This document shows, piece by piece, positions 1-57,801 of a stretch of 64,000 nucleotides of DNA. Position 1 is the first letter of the stretch. Each line of letters begins with the position of its first letter. The notes below the pieces were generated by a model. It saw only the letters and a program-made list of their open reading frames with translations. It ran no database searches and had not been told where the DNA came from. The translations under genes and the position numbers were made by a program. The stretch comes from Fistulifera solaris (Eukaryota > Bacillariophyta > Bacillariophyceae > Naviculales > Stauroneidaceae): NCBI GenBank assembly GCA_030295235.1, contig AP026136.1, positions 186,001 to 250,000 on the forward strand, read 5' to 3'.

Positions 1-2427
1 GGGTACTTTTTCTTCAGCAAGTTTGCCCGATTCTTTCTCCGGTGTTGTTTCGGGTTCGGGTTTCTCCTTTTGCATAGCGGCTTTAATTTTCTCTAACTGA
101 GCACGCTCCATACTCACGGGATCTTCGGAAAGTAACTGGGAAATGGCATCCATTTCGGCAGAAGTCAGTGAATGCTCCGCTTTGGTCTCGGATATTTCCT
201 CCGTACTTTCATTTGGAGAAGGCACTGCTTTCATTGACTCTGGCGCAGCAACGACCACTGGTTCTGCCTTGGTAGGCGTCGCTGTTGCAGACACAGGTTC
301 TTCTATGGCAGCCTTCTCTGCCTCGGCTTCCGTCGCTGCTCCCGCCTCGGTTTTAACTTTTTGTTTCTTGGCTGCCTCGCGGGCCGCTTCTTCTTCACGA
401 ATCAACTCATTCTGCTTCGACAAAACTTCTAATTTAATCTTTCGTACGTCGGGATTCGACATTTTTTCTTCGGATGTCGCCACATTCAAAATAACTTCGT
501 TCAGTACTTCCTTGTCCAGACCCGAAATGGTATCCGCCAATCCCGCTAAAGATTCACGGGGTTTCTCTTCATCTGGTTTACGCTCAAAAGCTTCTTCTTG
601 CAGGAAGAAGGTGCGACTCATGATGAGCAAGGAAATAGGGACATTCTTTTCAACACTCAACTCCAACCATTGAATCAACATGCGTTTGAACGCGTCCTTA
701 CTCAAACCCGTCGAACGCATTCCTCGTTCCCGACAAGCTTCTCGTAATTCCATTTTAGTTAATGAATCAATGCCTTCCCACAAAATGCGTTGGTCGTCCT
801 CTTTCAAAATACGAATTCGGTGTCTCAGTTGAAAACGCAAAAACGAGTCGGAACCGTAGGGAGGGATGCCCATGTATTTGCACATATTAATCAGTTGCAT
901 CCGTGGCATATTGTCCAACGTCAGGTCGTCTTGAAAGTAAGTTGCATACTTGATAATCAACTCAGGCGGGATCGTTCGCCCGCTTCGAGCGCTTTCCAAG
1001 AATTCCAGCATGGATCGTGCGGAGTCTTCCTGTTCGTGCATTCCTACCTCGTCACCAGCTTCTTGTAGTTCTTTCGTTTTCTTTTTCGCTTTGCGTCGTT
1101 GTTCTTTGGCCAACTCCTCTAGTGTTCTTTTGAGTTTGGCGGAAAGCATGAATGAGAAACATCAATGATGATTTTAAAAAGGATGACTGGCAAACACAAA
1201 TGAAAACTTACTCATGGAAGAAACTTGCCATCGCAATGCGTGACTGTAATTCTCGTTTCATGTTTTCCTCATTCTTGAGCGAATCTTGAAAGGTACTAGG
1301 GAGCATGTTCGGGAAGAGACGCAGCACAAAGGGCAAGGCGAATTCACCCAACGGAATGATAATGAACATGCTGAATGGAACCATTCGAAACAAATCCGAT
1401 ACGGTTCGTAGCAATTGCTTCCGTTCACGACGCGTCAAGGAAGAACCTTGCAATGTCTTGACTACCAAACTGCGAGATGTTTGGATGTCAGCCCACAGCA
1501 ACTATACAATCCAAATTAAGCCATGAAGTAATGGTGAGGTTGTACAGTCATCATTCAGCAAAAAACCCAAATTTCACGTACCTTGAAACCAACCCAATAG
1601 TGATGTATTTCGTCCTTGACGGCCTGTTTCATGTCGGCATATTTCTTACGCGTCTCCGTCGGATGGGTCAAATAATAGTACAGATTCCCCGGCAACTGAA
1701 AAAGAACCGCAACAACGTCGTAAACGCCGAAATGATCCCATCGACACCTTTCCGTACAATACTCCGGGGACTGGCCTTTTGAGTGATTCCAATGGATTCA
1801 TCTCCGACTCGATTCCAGACGGTGGAGTCGGGATACGTGTCGGGTCGAGTTTGTGTTTGACCACCGGACGAGGTGCCGTCCGCGCGGCTACTGAAAGCGA
1901 AGGTGGGACCGATGACGACGATGAAGAGTCGGGAGTAGGAGTCGGAGATGTTGAAAATTGCGCCAATTGTTGCAACCAAGGGGATTGATTCGGAATGTTG
2001 TAATTGCGATGGTACTGACTTCGACGTTTGCGATGACTTTCTCCGCCGTTTCGAGTAGAACTCAATACATCTAGCTGGACTAACGGATTTATTCTGAATT
2101 CCTTGGCTTCCAACACATCGGTCGATTGGATTATCGTCGCGTCTTGCATCGCTACAACTTTCGAAGAAGACCAGCCGATGTGGAGTGGCGACTGGAGTTG
2201 GCTTGGGCTGCACGGCAAAAGAGGCGAGAGCATTCGAATCTTTTCAAGTTTACTATGATCAAGAGAAGATTCCATCTTGTTTTGACTTCCACTCTCCGAC
2301 GTCTCTCGCTTTGGCAGATCCAAAAGACCGAAGTCGACGAGCGAACGATGGAATCTGTTTGTCGCCTCTTCCAATTGCTACGCGCTAATTGCCGCAAAGT
2401 ACCACTTCTTCGCCATGAATTCATCAT
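1..2427 (-). CDS. LETM1-like mitochondrial inner-membrane protein (partial, C-terminus off left edge)
   Basis: LETM1 proteins sit in the mitochondrial inner membrane and act in K+/H+ or Ca2+/H+ exchange and mitochondrial volume control. The conserved core is visible: LPGNLYYYLTHPTETRKKY (about 1,690-1,640), then LLWADIQTSRS...LTRRERKQLLRT and FALPFVLRLFPNMLPSTF (1,503-1,210), then RTIPPELIIKYATYFQDDLT and the FLRFQLRHRIR block in the exon running to base 1. An intron lies at about 1,504-1,580 (GTACGT...TATAG). A second lies at about 1,150-1,213 with a clear GTAAGT donor but no clean AG acceptor before MLSAKLKRTLEEL. The tail is Glu/Lys/Ala-rich coiled coil and continues beyond the window. The 5' end is unresolved: the N-terminal region changes frame at least twice between about 1,690 and 2,380, and the basic MMNSWRRSGTLRQLARSNW at 2,427 is only a candidate presequence. 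The family call is firm; the N-terminus is not. Confidence 0.85.
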
Positions 2428-49635: not shown

Positions 49636-50694
49636 TCATGTCAAAACACCGTATTTGCGAAGAATGTCGTCTGCCGCCAGTGCCAAGAGTTGACTGTTCG
49701 TGTGGTTATCGATTGAGTTATCGCTCCGTAATTGACTACGAGCCTGATCCATAGCACTCTCGAGTTGTAGTTGTCGCCACTCCAAGAATCGACTATCTTG
49801 TTCTTCTTCGTCTTCTCGTTGACGAAATGTATCTTCCTCTGGCATGGCTGGTTCTATTTCAGGAATTGAGTCTACTTCCATGGCATCCTCTTTCTCGGGT
49901 AAAGGACGCTTGCGTTGCCGAATCATCGTATTCGGCTGTTTCAATGTGTGATAGGTATCCTTCACAAAGGGCAGTACTTGCTTCAATTCCAAGCGCGTAA
50001 ATTCGGTGGAAGCATCGATGAGGTCCTCGAGGGCCACGTCGGCGACACAATACAAAGCCGCCGCCTCGTACGCGGGTCCGTATCGTACGAAATCATACAA
50101 TTGACCCCGACGATCGGATTCACTCATGGAAGGATTGTTTATTACGAATTGCATCATTTGATCAAACAATTGTTGCGCCAATTGACACGCCTTGGCTGAA
50201 TCTAATATTTGGAGTCGAATCGCCAAATCTTCGATGCGCCGCCCATCGGCTTGCGCGGTGGTGGACCGGGACGATCGTCGTCGTTCTTCAATGGGGCGTT
50301 TCGCCAGTTGTTGGCGGATGGCTTGCACTTGTGTGCTTCGTTTGATCGGTAAATATTGTTGTATGGAAAGAGTGCTCGGCTGTTGCAGATAATTGTTGAG
50401 GCATTGTTGCAGTTGTTCGAGATGCAGTGTTTTTATATTCACCGCCTTTTCCAACTTTTGCCACGGCAGACGGCTTTTTGTTTCTTGACGATACGCCAAC
50501 TCCAACAAGACAGCCGCACGAGTATTGGAACGATCGTATTTGCCGAGACTTCCTGTTTTGACGCGTGTTTCGAGGATACGGACATTTTCCGCGGCTTTGC
50601 GGATCACTTCTTTCGAAATATCCACCGCGTGATTTTTCGTCAGTATTTCGGCTAATCTTTCGACTGGGTTTCCCACTTGAAACGTAAGTGGCAT
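49636..50694 (-). CDS. Origin recognition complex subunit 6 (ORC6)-like
   Basis: Candidate smallest subunit of the replication-origin complex, with TFIIB-like cyclin folds. The first fold reads VIRKAAENVRILETRVKTGS, DRSNTRAAVLLELAYRQETK, LEKAVNIKTLHLEQLQQCLN. This matches the ORC6 pattern of paired helices with a conserved small-residue LELA-type helix and a Lys-rich recognition helix. A linker (RRRSSRSTTAQADGRR) precedes the second fold: IEDLAIRLQILDSAKACQLA, YGPAYEAAALYCVADVALED, EFTRLELKQVLPFVKD. The C-terminus is acidic and charged (EKEDAMEVDSIPEIEPAMPE) and ends in a helix, ALAADDILRKYGVLT. 352 aa, intact. ORC6 is poorly conserved, so this call rests on architecture. Confidence 0.6.
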   Translation of the reverse strand: MPLTFQVGNPVERLAEILTKNHAVDISKEVIRKAAENVRILETRVKTGSLGKYDRSNTRAAVLLELAYRQETKSRLPWQKLEKAVNIKTLHLEQLQQCLNNYLQQPSTLSIQQYLPIKRSTQVQAIRQQLAKRPIEERRRSSRSTTAQADGRRIEDLAIRLQILDSAKACQLAQQLFDQMMQFVINNPSMSESDRRGQLYDFVRYGPAYEAAALYCVADVALEDLIDASTEFTRLELKQVLPFVKDTYHTLKQPNTMIRQRKRPLPEKEDAMEVDSIPEIEPAMPEEDTFRQREDEEEQDSRFLEWRQLQLESAMDQARSQLRSDNSIDNHTNSQLLALAADDILRKYGVLT

Positions 50695-51172
50695 TGTAAG
50701 GAGACTAGGGTGAGTAGGCGAGACTTTCTATGAGAGTACGAGTGAATGATTAGCAATTTACTTTGTACTAGGGTACCTTGTACGTTCGTCAAATTGTCAT
50801 GGTCGCCCGCGATCGCGGTGCAAAATGTTGGCTATAATTATTTTGGCTGGCCGAGTTTTGGTGCCGGTCCGCCGATAGGTTGATCGCGACAATACCGGGA
50901 TGAAGCTATTTCCGTTGGGGATATCTGTTGGTGTTTCCGAGTACATTCTATTCCAGATTTATTACGATACTTATAGGTTGTGTCCTAATAGGGATCGCGC
51001 CTTTCACTCTGTGTCACATTCTTGATATAAAGGTTTATACAAAAATGAAGAATGCATATTTTCGACGGAAAATACCAAAATCCCATCGTCCAACAATTTG
51101 TTGGTTTGCGGCACGGCGTGACAACTTAAATGTGATCAAGATTAAATACCTTATACATCGCATATAACAACC
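50695..51172. promoter_or_regulatory. Divergent promoter ORC6-like / kinesin-MAP65
   Basis: No gene seen. The gap contains a GTAC-rich cluster (about 50,765-50,783) close to the ORC6-like start. Two genes expected to act in the cell cycle share this interval, so coordinate control is possible. Confidence 0.35.
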
Positions 51173-54100
51173 ATGACTTCCTCAAGAGTTCGTGTAGCGG
51201 TTCGTGTGCGGCCATTGGGTCATCAAGAGGTCGCGCAAGGAGGGACTCACGTAGTGACGGCGCGACACCCCGAGATTCGTTTGGGGGAACGACGATTTAC
51301 CTTCGATTCAGTGTTTGATACGTCCGTGAGCCAGGCTGCTTTGTTTGATGAAGTTTCCGGACCACTACAAACCAGTTTTTTGGATGGTTACAATGCTACG
51401 GTGAGTTCTCTGAGTTGAGCTTGTGGCAACAAGGTGCCCGATTCTTTCTGTCCTCTCACAATTGAATTTCTTTTGTAGATTATGGCGTACGGGCAGACGG
51501 GTTCAGGAAAAACGTTTACAATGGGCAGTGAAGCTCATTCAGAGCTTGAAATTACGGATAGTACGGGTTTAATTCCGCGTTTCATGAGTGGCGTTTTCGA
51601 AGAACTGGAACAACGCCGCGGCACAATCGCGCTCTCGCAATACAAATTGGAAGCGTCGTTCCTGGAAGTATACGGAGAAGATGTCCATGATCTGTTGCTA
51701 GAATCTCGTCCGTCGTTGCCTCTCCGAGAAGGCGCGAATGGGGGGATCGTTTGTCCGGGGTTGACGATGAGACACGTACAAACGGCCGAACAAGCGCTGG
51801 AAGTTCTTCACGAAGGAACGAAGAACCGAACCACCGCGGCCACACTCATGAATCTCACAAGCAGTCGTTCCCATGCTGTTTTTACTGTGACGCTCACACA
51901 AACAGCTCAGATGCAAAACAGTGACGTTGAAGTTACCACCACGAGTCGATTCACGTTTGTGGACTTGGCCGGAAGTGAACGACTAAAAAGACGGGTGCCG
52001 AAGGCACTCGGGCGAAAGAAGGCATTAAAATCAACGAGGGGCTTCTTGCTTTGGGAAATGTTATCAATGCTTTGGCGGATGATGAGCGATTATTGGAAGG
52101 AAAGAAAATGCACGTTCCCTATCGTCAGTCAAAATTGACTCGGTTGCTGCAAGACGCATTGGGCGGAAACAGCCAGACTCTGTTCCTCGCCTGCATCTCA
52201 CCGTCCGATACAAACGCTAGCGAGAGTTTGTCAACTTTACATTACGCAAATCGAGCCCGTAACATCAAAAATGCTCCGACGAAGAACGTCGATTCGAATG
52301 TCTTGGAAATGCACCGTTTGCAAGCATACAATAATATACTTCAAAGCGAGCTGGTCAAACTTCGTTTTGGCGGCGGCGAGAACGAGAACCCTGAGATATC
52401 TGTGGACGAATTACTGATGAAAAGTGAAGTTAACGATTATCTTTCGCGACTACATCAAATTGCAATGACCTCTAAGGAGGGGTCAATAATAAGTCATCAC
52501 GCTTCAGTGACTCTAACGTCGCCGAAGCCAAGTAAGCTGAGACCCTGCCCGAGTTCCGTGCTCCGCGACATCTCTCCGAACAAGTCAATATTTGAACACT
52601 GCGATGCAGACATGCTGACGGAAGTGAACCCAGACGAGGAAATGTCTATCTTGAACCACCTACTAGAACTTCAGCAAAAGACTCAAGACTTCGATGACTC
52701 AAAGAGGAAGGACGATGAAGCACTGAAAGCTGTTACGGGGGAACTTGCCGAGCAGGAGGCTATGCTACTTCAACTTCGAGATAGTCTCAAAGTCTACCAT
52801 CATATGAAAGACCAATACGAGAAACTGATGGTCGAGGTACAACACCTCGAGACCGAAAAGGCACAGCTTGCTGAGCAACTCGAGAAAGCCAAAAGTGATC
52901 CTAGCGCAGGATGCTCCGTTGCGATTAAATTGAATCTGGAGAAGGTGGAACAAAACTTAGCTAGAGCACGAGATGAGACAAGAAAATATCGACAGATGTG
53001 CAAAAAGGCGGAGCAAGAACAGCAAAAGTGTCTCGTGTTGGAACGTAAGGTCAGCGAACTGAAGTCCAAGAGCGCAGCTCTGGTACGAAAACAGAAAGCG
53101 GCAGCGGCACAGTTTCGTGACTATACTGAATCCAAGCAGCGCGAAATCGCCACCTTGAAGAGAAAAGAAAAAAGCTACTGAAAAGAAGATGAGCAAGCTG
53201 CAATCAGAAATTCAAATTCATCGCAGGAACCTTGATAAACGTCAGGTATTCTGCAACAAACTTTCATCGAAACTCAAGGAGACGGAGACGCATTTGATGA
53301 AGTTGCTGGCTCTCCGTAAAAAAAGAATGTCGTGAAAGATATGCCAAGACAGGCAACCACCGCGCAACCATAGTTTCGAAGGATGCCAATATCCAGCAGG
53401 GCCGTGCTCCTGCTGACGATGAGGTATTGAAGTCGATCAAGATGCTCGTTGACAGAGTTGTATCAGCAGCTGTGAGTAAGGAATGCGCAAAGAAGAAGTA
53501 CCAGAGCAGATTCAATGAATACACACAGACTATGAGGCTTCTTGTAGATCAGGTCAATGCTTTGGAAGGGTTTAAGAGTACTGAAAGTGGGGATTCGGAG
53601 GACGGATTGCAGCAGGAAGCCGAGCAGCAAATTGAAGAACTTGAGCTCAAAATAGAGTTACTAGCGGGAGATTTAGAGCAGCTCAGTTCCGAGCTTCCAG
53701 CCGACGAGGAAGGTGCGAATGACGCTTTGGAGCATGTCAATCAGCTGCTTGGGGATAAAGAGGCGCCTGTTCTTCGTAGCATGTTAGCCGCTTATCTTCA
53801 AGAATTGATACATGCAGAGGTACGAGATGCCAGCTCAAAAACTTAACAAGATTACATTGACTCACCGTTTTTCTTTCAGTTTGAAAACAAACAGCTTTCT
53901 GAATCCATCAAGAGAAAGGAGTCCGTCGTTGAAGGTTTGGAGTCCGAAATTGCACACTTGTCTTCTCGGATTTCCATATTGAATACCAGGGGTGAAGAAC
54001 ACGAAACATCATTGGTTGAAGTAGAAAAGCAAAAATTAGAAATCGCAAACCAGAGCCTAGCAAGCAAAGTTGCGGAATTGGAAGACAGGACAAAAACGTT

Positions 54101-56185
54101 GAAGAAATTGGAAACAGAAGATCGCATTGAGAAGATGAAACTTGCCACAGCGCTAGAAAGGGTCGCTCTACTGGAGGCTGCTCTTAAACAAAAAGATGTT
54201 CCTAATGGTTCAGAAATGGTTCTACGAGCCATGCAAGGCATCTGGGAGAAATTAGGGACGTCAATAGAGGACCGCGAGAAGGTCAAGAAACAGATTGAAA
54301 ATTGTTTGGATGATACATGCAATCGCAAACTTGAGGAGGCGCAAAAGCAGTTGGAATGCTCCTTATCGGTTCTTGAACGCGAAACGGCGAAAATGCAATT
54401 CATGTATTTATCTTTAGCCGAAGACATTCCGATGCTCTCAGAAACGCAACAACCTGTGTACCAGCAACTGGAAGAAGTGCAGACAAAGTCAAAATCGATC
54501 GAGGCTTGGTTCGAAACTGCTTTAAAGCGGAGAGACGAAATTGCTGACCAAGCGCAAAACCTAGTCGCAAGTCTAGAACTTGAATTTGGAGGCCTAAGCA
54601 ATGATTTGCAAGTAGCCATTCTTGAAGCAGGTGCATCTCGTGATCAATTTGATGTCCCGATGCATCTAGAAGACAGCTTTTTGTCAAGTTGTGAAGCTCA
54701 ACTACGTCGCCTTCGAGTCGAAAAGTCCAAAGCGACTGCAAAGTATGCATCCATACAAACCGAAACACAAAAGCTAATCGCGGATATGAATCTTCCGGAA
54801 TCTGCTATTCTTCCCATGGTGCACACTTACCTTGAAAAGCAGTCGCTTGGCCTTCCTTCATGGTGGCGAAACGAGATTGCAGCAGCAGTGACGTTTTCAC
54901 TAGTTTCTGAGACTGGCTTCAGCAGGCACACTTCGGCCTATGTCAAACATCTCAGCAAACTTCACGAAATAGTCACGGCGGTATCTCTTGCGCGCGGTCA
55001 TCTGTCCGCCAAACTGAAAGGTATTGTTCAGAAAGCACAAGAAACGCTCCTTGATACTGTTGATGAAGAAATAGATGCAAAAGAGGCGTACTCTAGTTTT
55101 CATGACGCTCTTTTCCGACTCCCGCCTCTTTCAAGAGAAATGATCAACGCCTGTAGTTCGGAGGTTGATGCGTTGTTGACTGGCGTGCAGTCGATGATTC
55201 AAAGCGAAATCGAGGCTCTAACGGTTGTCTGGGAAGCACTTGACATATCGAGCAGCAAACGAGGGACGTTTTGGGGTGAAATCCAAGAATCGATGAGATC
55301 AATAGAAAACAGTATGTCGAGTGTATTCGACGGCGATGCTTCCTCAAACTGCATATGGGATCTCGAAGACTGGATACTTCCAGCTAAGGAGAAAGCTACA
55401 GTAACTTTTTTGGAACTTGAAAAGCTGCTTTTCAAACTTCAAAAGATTCATAAAGAAGTCGAAAGGCTTTCAGCAAAGCAGGACGTTAAGAGCCGGATAA
55501 TTTCTTTGGATTCTGAGATACGAATCCTAAATGCCAAGCTTGCAGAATTTGAAGAAACGAAGTGCGACAAAGAGAGACTAATAACAAAGAAAGCCACGAG
55601 CTCCACGCTGCTCAAGGAAGAGCGGTATCGAAAGCAAATGCAATCAAAATTTTCGGCGAAATTCGCACAGCTTGCGTCGCTTCTCAAAACGTGGTCAATC
55701 GACGACGACGGCCAATTTGATCCTAGGCTTTTAAGTGAGGAAGTTCGAATTCTTCTTGCAAATTCAAACGAAATTGATTCGCTGGTTGAAAAACGTACCG
55801 AATTTATGCATTTACGTACCATTCAACCAAAGACTACCAACAAGCGAAAAGCGGACGGGGAAGTGCAGCCGAGAAAGATTGCGAGAATTCAAAGTCGCGA
55901 TAATGAAAAACCTTTACCATTGCCATCAAGGCTGGATGCTAAGAACGTGATCCAGAATATGGCGTCTTGTGATGGTAAGAAACTCAGTCCCTTAAGGGCG
56001 AAGAAGACCCAAGCTTCCGGAAAGCTTCAAAAGCGCCACGCGTCCCGCTATCCAACAAATTAGAATCAAGTCAGGTGGCAAAAGGCCTTTCTCCAAAGAA
56101 AAAACTCACCCTCCCTCCGTTTGGACATGTTCTTGAGAAAGCATTTACTCCAAGAGACAAAAATAAAGAAAACGAAATCATTTAA
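51173..56185 (+). CDS. Kinesin-4 (KIF4-like) motor fused to a MAP65/PRC1/Ase1-like domain
   Basis: About 1,620 aa in three exons (51,173-51,400; 51,479-53,819; 53,880-56,185). Motor: [14 protein letters not shown]-loop [14 protein letters not shown], switch [12 protein letters not shown], switch [45 protein letters not shown] and [12 protein letters not shown], best fitting kinesin-4. A long coiled coil follows, including the KIF4-like [20 protein letters not shown] ... [13 protein letters not shown] block. From about 54,200 to 55,810 it reads like MAP65/PRC1: [60 protein letters not shown] and [20 protein letters not shown]. The tail is basic, then [14 protein letters not shown]. Frame changes lie at A-runs near 51,987, 53,170 and 53,320 and near 56,030; none falls between the KIF4-like coiled coil (from 53,427) and the MAP65-like part. 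Likely role: crosslinking and length control of antiparallel spindle microtubules. Confidence 0.85.
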
Positions 56186-56251: not shown

Positions 56252-57801
56252 TTATGTATCATCTAGCCATACCATAACAACGCAAATATTATCCCCTGAT
56301 CCTCTTTTGAAGGCCTCGTACGCAACGCTCTTGGCCATATTCTTCCGGAGCACGAGCTTGTATCTGTCCTTTTCTTGGCTATCCATGACATCATTGTTTC
56401 TCAGCTCATTCTCTATTCGATCATGCACGAACGAAACAACATCTTGACTCGACATAGCATCCCATAACCCATCGGATGCCAAGAGTATAAACTCGTCGCG
56501 GTCGTCGAGAACTGGAAAATGTTTGATCTCTACCTCGCCACTCACAATGGGCTTTGCGTATCGGTCTCCAATAGCCCTTGATAAAGATAAATTTCGAACG
56601 CGATGGACTTTGGCAAACCTATCCCACTCTATGGTTTCACCCATTCGCATTATACGTGCCTTTTCGCGTTCTTCATTCGGCTTGTGGTCGGTTGTCAGGT
56701 CGATAGCCTGACCCGCTCGACTCAATATGGCACGGCTATCCCCAATATTTGCCGACATCACCGTCCGGTATCCCGCTTCATTATCATGTAGGAAAACAGC
56801 AACAGCAGTACTTCCTTGGTAATGGAGTGCATCATCTTGTAAAACATCCTCTTCAATTCGGTTAAACGCATCACGAAGTGCACTAGCAAGACACGCCAGC
56901 GACGGATTCGCTTGATGCTGGGGACAAGTTATGCTCTCTTCATCGTGTAACTCTTTTAAACTTTCTCCAAGCTGTTGATAAAGCCGTCGCTTGAGATACT
57001 GGCTAACACCTCCTCCTCCGTGTCCATCAAAAACGGCAGCGAAGCGACCTCCATCGGCAACGAAGTATTCGTCCTCCATGGTGATTCGTCCACCTTTTAT
57101 AGCTCGAGCAGATATCTGTATTGGAAAACTGGTGTGAGAGCTGAACTTGATCGAACTTGACGAAAAACAAATGTGAGTACACTTACGTCATAAACTCGTC
57201 GCCGATCGTGAAGAATAGGAACGTTGGGTGCATGCGCTTCCCTGTCCAATTCGTCCACAACAATGCCTCGTTTATCTTGCTCATCATGTAGTGAAGCTTC
57301 CACATCGTTACGAGGATCAGCGAGATACAAGGCAGAAGCATTGGTAGCGCTTTCTCCTCCTTGATTTCCACCACTGTTCCTTGGAGGGGGCTGGTCACCA
57401 GAGGATCGGTAACTTTGCGACGGAAAAAGCGACACAAGTGTCGCAGATCCAGCGAAGGCAATGACAGTAGAGAACAGAATCTGGCGGAGGGATATCCAGT
57501 CCTTCTTTTCGCTTCTCTGTGTCGTATTTTCAGAGCTACCTAATGCGGTAGAGAATTCTCGGCATGCGAGCGCGGAATGATACAGAGGAAGAGCTTGTTG
57601 GTTCACGGTCGATACGAGCATCCTAGACGGTCTGGCTGCATTTGATAATGAGGGGGAGTCAGAGAAAAAGCGCGGTAATTGCCCATTGTTTTTTCGATCT
57701 CTGCAGGGTCCGCTGGTATACTGGTATTGATAACAGCAGCGAGATCTGGGTAGCAAGCTCGACGAAGTAGCGCTGTACGCTGAGGATCTCACATAGCTCA
57801 T
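56252..57801 (-). CDS. PP2C-type Ser/Thr phosphatase with mitochondrial-type presequence and membrane anchor
   Basis: Mn/Mg-dependent protein phosphatase. Two exons (57,801-57,187 and 57,115-56,252) with a 71-nt GTAAGT...ACAG intron. The start MSYVRSSAYSATSSSLLPRS gives a basic Ser-rich presequence. A single membrane segment, LRQILFSTVIAFAGSATLVS, lies at about residues 130-150. The PP2C core follows: RVYDISARAIKGGRITMEDE, RFAAVFDGHGGGGVSQYLKR (metal Asp/Gly), QGSTAVAVFLHD, SANIGDSRAILSRAG, DLTTDHKPNEEREKARI, VRNLSLSRAIGDRYAKP, FILLASDGLWDAMSSQDVVS and RGSGDNICVVMVW. All metal-binding Asp motifs appear present. About 492 aa. The layout suggests an organelle membrane phosphatase, probably mitochondrial inner membrane. 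Confidence 0.92.

Follow-up and report, generated by a model that had tools for sequence, protein, structure and literature searches.

A kinesin-4 motor and a divergent MAP65/PRC1/Ase1-like region joined in one gene of the diatom Fistulifera solaris

The window analysed here, a stretch of 64,000 nucleotides from Fistulifera solaris (contig AP026136.1, positions 186,001 to 250,000), harbors on its forward strand a gene that extends from an ATG at 51173 to a stop codon at 56183–56185. From N- to C-terminus the predicted protein comprises a kinesin-4 motor, a kinesin-4 stalk, a MAP65/PRC1/Ase1-like region of ∼540 residues, and a tail with PFG and KEN motifs (Table 1). An earlier note on this DNA had given the same start and stop, and its quoted peptides were found again, as were the motor and a stalk of kinesin-4 type. 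However, the single uninterrupted frame of 708 codons that it described does not hold: the gene has two introns and four frame breaks, and the long open reading frame (53847–56063) counts 738 codons from stop to stop, with the motor and the quoted coiled coil lying outside of it in other frames.

Table 1. Features of the fusion gene (positions in the window)
Feature	Position	Strand	Remarks
Kinesin-4/MAP65-like fusion gene	51173..56185	+	three exons; 1624 aa once spliced and read past the assembly breaks; equals P0001 except two X
Exon 1	51173..51400	+	followed by a GT-AG intron
Intron 1	51401..51478	+	gtgag...tag; GT-AG
Exon 2	51479..53819	+	remainder of the motor and most of the stalk; contains three 1-base frame breaks
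Intron 2	53820..53879	+	gtacg...cag; GT-AG, 60 bases; connects ...ELIHAE with FENKQ...
Exon 3	53880..56185	+	stalk end, MAP65-like region, and tail; frame break near 56029
Kinesin motor domain	51185..52287	+	residues 5–346; PF00225 in three frame pieces
KIF21A_4th stalk domain (PF25764)	52669..53169	+	43.0 bits against a cut-off of 33.1
MAP65/PRC1/Ase1-like region	54207..55826	+	residues 966–1505; based on relatives and profiles; dN/dS 0.073
LLKEERYRK block	55608..55634	+	paired by hhalign with QLMEEEKMAR of free MAP65; pattern in 58/67 relatives
Tail	55827..56182	+	residue 1506 to end; dN/dS 0.212
PFGHVL	56117..56134	+	near the C-terminus; pattern within the last 150 residues in 54/67 relatives
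KEN tripeptide	56165..56173	+	within the last 60 residues in 47/67 fusion relatives versus 14/120 listed free MAP65s

The four breaks in the window are of one base each and lie in the A-run 51985–51989 and at about 53168, 53318, and 56029. As a public F. solaris record from another contig (P0001, 1624 aa) reads through the gene unbroken, they are most simply taken as errors of this assembly. After insertion of an N where a base is missing (two sites) and omission of one base at each of the other two, the translation agrees with P0001 throughout, save for two X. The homeolog L005 has the same domain order as the window copy and is free of three of the four breaks, the break in the A-run being common to both copies. 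Identity between the homeologs is 77% in intron 2 and 87–93% in the coding segments. The dN/dS values derived from their DNA alignment are 0.055 for the motor, 0.119 for the stalk, 0.073 for the MAP65-like region, and 0.212 for the tail, and at the level of the sequence they show purifying selection on the fusion gene.

Motor and stalk are of the kinesin-4 type. The best PDB match of the motor is KIF4 (3zfc/3zfd, E 5.1e-86), first of 85 sequences at E≤1e-60 (among the 60 listed), and the stalk domain PF25764 is found at E≤0.01 in all 28 motor-bearing relatives that were scanned. In a tree of 13 motor loci, out of 30 fetched, 11 fused motors form one clade with a support of 100/98, and the F. 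solaris motor nearest to this clade is an unfused kinesin-4 (support 85/77). KIF4 has a cysteine-rich C-terminal domain; none of the Pfam matches listed in the general scan of the window protein and the 28 relatives is to this domain.

Through the C-terminal half we found 67 relatives; the two protein searches aimed at the fusion scored the best 7993 and 8000 candidates, that is, those with the most shared words. Motor motifs are present in the same chain in 41 relatives, and in 32 by a stricter pattern that also requires the LLKEE block. The models of the other 26 are without a motor, perhaps because the callers of open reading frames halted at introns or because the contigs ended. The fusion occurs in several diatoms and in addition in Triparma verrucosa and T. 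pacifica (Bolidophyceae, Parmales). It is therefore not confined to diatoms: the Triparma proteins rule out a diatom-only fusion and speak against the lineage-specific diatom design which had been proposed in the earlier note. Four proteins derived from MMETSP span the junction: P0055 and P0062 comprise the motor, the stalk, and the MAP65-like half; P0049 has all three, its motor being cut at the start; and P0065 has the stalk and the MAP65-like half. The transcript support that had been sought is thus available in relatives, F. solaris itself being outside of this set.

That two adjacent genes were merely joined by annotation or assembly is extremely improbable: the frames in the window are indeed broken, the stalk is separated from the long open reading frame by a 60-base intron, and the 26 relatives' models lack the motor, but the public gene model P0001 is unbroken on another contig, the homeolog has the same order, the 41 relatives bear motor motifs in the same chain, and the four transcript-derived proteins already contradict such a merger in the relatives. 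As judged from the sequence, the natural fusion of kinesin-4 and MAP65 that had been claimed is real, and it is present in many relatives. Our literature searches found no paper describing a kinesin-4/MAP65 fusion.

In F. solaris the likeness of the C-terminal half to MAP65 is very divergent and is visible only through relatives and profiles. A search against PF03999, as proposed in the earlier note, gave no match with this half alone even at E≤10, and phmmer found nothing in the PDB at E≤1. Taken literally, the refutation test of that note is failed by the F. solaris sequence in its profile part; the less divergent relatives, in contrast, do match the family. Among the 28 relatives picked from the 67 for bearing a motor, 18 have a PF03999 match at E≤0.01 and 10 have none at this threshold. 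The curated cut-off of 26.9 bits is exceeded by at least four proteins (P0018, 32.2; P0002, 30.2; P0059, 29.0; P0009, 28.7), whereas of five relatives inspected singly P0060 stays below it (24.7) and P0055 has no match; in P0002 and P0018 the match covers positions 2–414 of the 477 of the profile. When compared by hhalign with 120 listed free MAP65s, the fused half is collinear over 449 columns (3–537 on 85–551, E 1.5e-7, probability 93.9) with 17% identity. The order of N-terminal rod and C-terminal microtubule-binding region is hence that of MAP65, with the signal stemming mostly from the first ∼105 columns and the C-terminal slices alone being weak (probability 4.7 for 150–544, 7.7 for 250–544, 9.3 for 280–544, and 1.9 for 380–544). 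A profile search of the PDB yielded PRC1 (4l3i/4l6y, chain 20–260, E 0.039) at rank five, below four coiled-coil chains.

One could argue that the C-terminal half is nothing but a long coiled-coil tail of a kinesin and that its similarity to MAP65 is a coiled-coil artefact. Such an artefact would fit the missing PF03999 match of F. solaris itself, the predominance of coiled coils in the PDB profile search, and the low similarity, which is weak for the C-terminal part alone. Nevertheless, we regard it as quite unlikely, as four relatives lie above the curated cut-off, two of them along most of the profile, and as the hhalign probability stayed <1 for all seven reversed slices and for all five slices taken from the stalks of the fusion proteins. 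In addition, four coil and motor pieces of unfused kinesin-4 are without a PF03999 match at E≤10, and the relatives share invariant tryptophans and the LLKEE block, which are unlike plain heptad filler.

The separate Ase1/PRC1 gene which the earlier note had proposed to look for does exist: F. solaris has a normal separate MAP65 on C15 and C16, and also an unfused kinesin-4 (L040 on C24; C23 carries matching pieces). Going by this gene complement, the fusion is an addition to both, and a replacement of either is ruled out. The fixed 1:1 stoichiometry that had been postulated would thus apply to the fused pool, whereas a strict ratio between the total amounts of bundler and motor is not implied, as separate MAP65 and unfused kinesin-4 persist. 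Their presence also makes a different job of the fusion possible.

We consider it highly probable that the gene codes for one protein in which a KIF4-type kinesin-4 motor and stalk runs, at its C-terminal end, directly into the N-terminus of a crosslinker of the MAP65/PRC1/Ase1 type. By analogy, it would likely act on antiparallel microtubule overlaps as a covalent module of the PRC1–KIF4A type. Its MAP65-like rod would form dimers with a preference for antiparallel overlaps, and its motor would walk toward the plus ends, slow plus-end growth, and compact the overlap or slide it. In the fused pool each bundler would come with exactly one motor, and any tuning would need to be brought about by the separate MAP65, by dosage, or by phosphorylation and destruction via the SP/TP...KEN tail, whose KEN tripeptide we take to be a candidate APC/C degron. 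In human cells the overlap-trimming motor and the overlap-holding bundler are separate partner proteins. In vitro the PRC1/KIF4A ratio sets the overlap length, as stated in a passage of PMC6616649. A ratio naturally fixed in one chain would allow testing whether the separate, regulated contact matters; RNP editing of both homeologs has been reported for other F. solaris genes (PMC13276009).

The diatom spindle is a key model for anaphase B, and in a 2016 review it was only speculated that Ase1p may be part of the matrix which anchors kinesins at its midzone (PMC5192431). The fusion gene is a concrete candidate for this matrix. We tentatively suggest, as a possibility with rather modest chances, that the fused protein serves diatoms as the motor-anchoring crosslinker at the midzone of the central spindle. 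It would then belong to the osmiophilic matrix and might be the ∼205-kDa midzone phosphoprotein of Stephanopyxis. This phosphoprotein was reportedly found in work of the 1980s; the calculated mass of the 18 of 67 relatives that appear full length by a simple rule is 176–222 kDa. If this were true, overlap length would be largely intrinsic to one molecule.

It is likewise conceivable, if rather unlikely, that the fusion works on interphase microtubules or in cytokinesis or valve formation instead of the spindle midzone, a reading that overlaps with the best explanation both in architecture and in odds. The spindle could be run by the unfused kinesin-4 and the separate MAP65, a survey mentions roles of kinesin-4/10 outside nuclear division (PMC2867816), and the occurrence of the fusion in Parmales means that it did not arise for the diatom spindle. 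Yet the fused partners are the known midzone pair, and the KEN near the C-terminus of most relatives hints at destruction in the cell cycle.

The fusion can be set against its unfused counterparts. The unfused kinesin-4 L040 of F. solaris shares with the fusion the best PDB match, KIF4, and the PF25764 stalk, and differs from it in that the pieces scanned bear no PF03999 match. The free F. solaris MAP65/PRC1 (L001; P0068/P0069, FisN_30Hh041, FisN_30Lh041) is collinear with the fused half over the 449 aligned columns, but it reaches 223.9 bits with PF03999, whereas the fused half of this species scores none. Human KIF4A and PRC1 represent the same pair of families. According to a passage of PMC6200392, the C-terminus of KIF4A is thought likely to contact the N-terminus of PRC1, which is the order found in the fusion. 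The human pair consists of two proteins with a reversible contact, whereas the fusion unites both in one chain with a very divergent MAP65-like half.

By joining three exons separated by two introns, both of the GT–AG type, we obtained a spliced gene (table) whose product carries a kinesin-4 (KIF4) motor, a stalk, and a MAP65/PRC1/Ase1-like half. It is identical, except for two X, to P0001, a 1624-residue record titled kinesin family member 4/21/27 [Fistulifera solaris]. As the contig of P0001 has 729,882 bases and the window contig 1,366,870, this record stems from another assembly. The unbroken P0001, its relatives, and transcripts from some of these relatives establish that the fusion claimed in the earlier note is real and conserved, with domains of two known midzone partners joined in one protein. 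Its uninterrupted 708-codon frame, however, was not borne out: the long open reading frame (53847–56063, 738 codons) starts within intron 2, and the window copy has four one-base frame breaks (at 51985–51989, about 53168, about 53318, and about 56029). The homeologous gene on contig C11 (L005) is 89% identical to the window gene over 5013 bases, lacks three of the four breaks, and shows further ones, chiefly in base runs, that are peculiar to it. The break in the A run at 51985–51989 is found in both copies but not in P0001, and thus is most simply explained as a systematic error in a base run. Pseudogene readings of broken frames elsewhere in the assembly need care.

Features of the fusion gene and its surroundings in the window
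Feature	Position	Strand	Remark
Divergent upstream neighbour	49636–50727	-	head to head with the fusion gene in both homeologs; L005 counterpart at 197–1063 (-)
Fusion gene	51173–56185	+	spliced, joined; ATG 51173, stop 56183–56185
Exon 1	51173–51400	+	
Exon 2	51479–53819	+	
Exon 3	53880–56185	+	
PFGxxL	56117–56134		conserved, C-terminal
PP2C phosphatase	56252–57187	-	PF00481, E 1.8e-45

A search with residues 960–1624 of the joined protein against 5.8 billion proteins gave 52 matches at E ≤ 0.001, including itself, and a portion of the Triparma relative P0051, used as a further query, gave 32 proteins, 15 of them new; pooled, both searches yield 67 fusion relatives (P0001–P0067). Motor motifs and the C-terminal half occur in one model in 41 of the 67, and motor motifs together with the LLKEE block in 32, while the models of 26 contain no motor. 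Four relatives are supplied by MMETSP transcriptomes: P0049 from Kryptoperidinium foliaceum, a dinoflagellate with a diatom endosymbiont (motor start missing), P0055 from Triparma pacifica, P0062 from Extubocellulus spinifer, and P0065, which comprises the stalk and the MAP65-like half. The metagenomic P0013 and P0014 are titled DNA repair exonuclease SbcCD ATPase subunit, a name that probably reflects misannotation of a coiled coil.

Other diatoms, in which the earlier note had proposed to look, have the fusion in one model, namely Seminavis, Epithemia, a Bacillariaceae MAG, and Extubocellulus, a centric diatom (Thalassiosirophyceae). The other named holders are Fistulifera, Kryptoperidinium, Triparma verrucosa, and T. 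pacifica; Mayamaea, Fragilaria, and T. columacea are represented by models without the motor. Triparma (Bolidophyceae/Parmales) belongs to the sister group of the diatoms, and thus the fusion would be older than the diatoms if it was inherited vertically.

The assignment of the C-terminal half to MAP65/PRC1/Ase1 finds support in the relatives but not in the F. solaris sequence alone, which gave no match to PF03999 (MAP65_ASE1) at E ≤ 10 and none among PDB chains at E ≤ 1. Precomputed Pfam columns list PF03999 for 24 of the 67 relatives, together with the motor family PF00225 for 15. We scanned 28 relatives selected for having a motor: at E ≤ 0.01, a threshold looser than the curated cut-off, PF00225 (by selection) and the KIF21A-like stalk PF25764 were found in all 28 and PF03999 in 18. 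P0002 (30.2 bits) and P0018 (32.2 bits) exceed the PF03999 cut-off of 26.9 and are collinear with profile positions 2–414 of 477; P0059 (29.0 bits, best stretch just 357–414) and P0009 (28.7 bits, just 2–202) also exceed it, P0060 stays below (24.7 bits), and for P0055 nothing matched at E ≤ 0.01.

In addition, the fused region was represented by a profile (67 rows, 59 retained by the program), which was compared with free MAP65s (120 listed of 254 matches to the F. solaris MAP65, the named ones being diatoms). The profiles align over 449 columns with inserts dropped (E 1.5e-7, probability 93.9, 17% identity) and over 197 with inserts kept (E 1.2e-8, probability 95.6), whereas the control slices, seven of them reversed and five from the stalk, all had a probability <1. 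The first ~105 columns carry the bulk of the signal; C-terminal slices alone reached just 1.9 to 9.3. A PDB search with an 18-row profile (the window and 17 motor-less relatives) found PRC1 at E 0.039, ranked fifth behind four coiled-coil chains. Taken together, the relatives' PF03999 matches, the profile comparisons, and the PDB match support, at the sequence level and short of proof of the fold itself, homology of the fused region, whose C-terminal part is divergent, to MAP65/PRC1/Ase1.

In the fusion gene PF00225 is matched as three frame pieces and PF25764 with 43.0 bits, and the best solved relative of the motor is KIF4 (E 5.1e-86). A tree was built from 23 motors: P0001, those of nine relatives, and 13 of 30 retrieved F. 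solaris motor loci, the homeologous fusion among them. All 11 fused motors group into a single clade (bootstrap 100, SH-aLRT 98). Outside this clade the unfused kinesin-4 L006 lies nearest, joined without strong support (85/77); three long branches leave other parts of the topology unsure. Between the homeologs dN/dS is 0.055 for the motor (340 codons), 0.119 for the stalk (616), 0.073 for the MAP65-like region (539), and 0.212 for the tail (118), showing that selection keeps both halves.

The tail ends with PFGxxL and KEN, the latter a candidate APC/C degron. The PFG pattern occurs in 54 of the 67 relatives versus none of the 120 free MAP65s, and KEN within the last 60 residues in 47 versus 14, these rows being related by descent and hence not independent.

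Fistulifera solaris also has separate MAP65 genes, which the earlier note had proposed to look for: normal copies lie on C15 and C16 (two pieces; proteins P0068 and P0069). A second, unfused kinesin-4 (L040, C24:475500–482700) extends across several frames (introns or breaks), four scanned pieces of it gave no MAP65 match, and matching pieces are present on C23. The upstream neighbour of the fusion gene, which we take to resemble ORC6, gave just a sub-threshold Cyclin_C match in Pfam. The phosphatase gene ends 66 bases from the fusion stop, and a similar open reading frame follows the fusion in L005 (6605–7468).

As far as our searches reach, the fusion is undescribed. No description was found among the matches listed, including those on diatom kinesin and MAP65 biology and diatom spindle elongation; the searches covered few subscription journals and a report may be in print elsewhere. 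In the main text of a 2006 kinesin survey that included Thalassiosira pseudonana, MAP65, PRC1, and ASE1 are absent, and most diatom kinesins are described as short, perhaps through poor gene models (PMC1434745); the three names are likewise absent from that of a 2010 survey (PMC2867816). For the diatom central spindle, a review of anaphase B uses the description almost paracrystalline and speculates that Ase1p may belong to its kinesin-anchoring matrix (PMC5192431).

In vitro, a higher PRC1/KIF4A ratio gives a longer overlap (PMC6616649), and in human cells one of the two sliding modules that elongate the spindle includes PRC1-dependent KIF4A (PMC8098747). We infer as the likeliest function that the fused protein would act in the midzone as crosslinker and motor in one self-contained molecule, and that tuning of the overlap would fall to the separate MAP65. 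For the human proteins, the C-terminus of KIF4A is considered a likely partner of the N-terminus of PRC1, which forms the link between microtubules (PMC6200392); in the fusion the same two ends are joined covalently.
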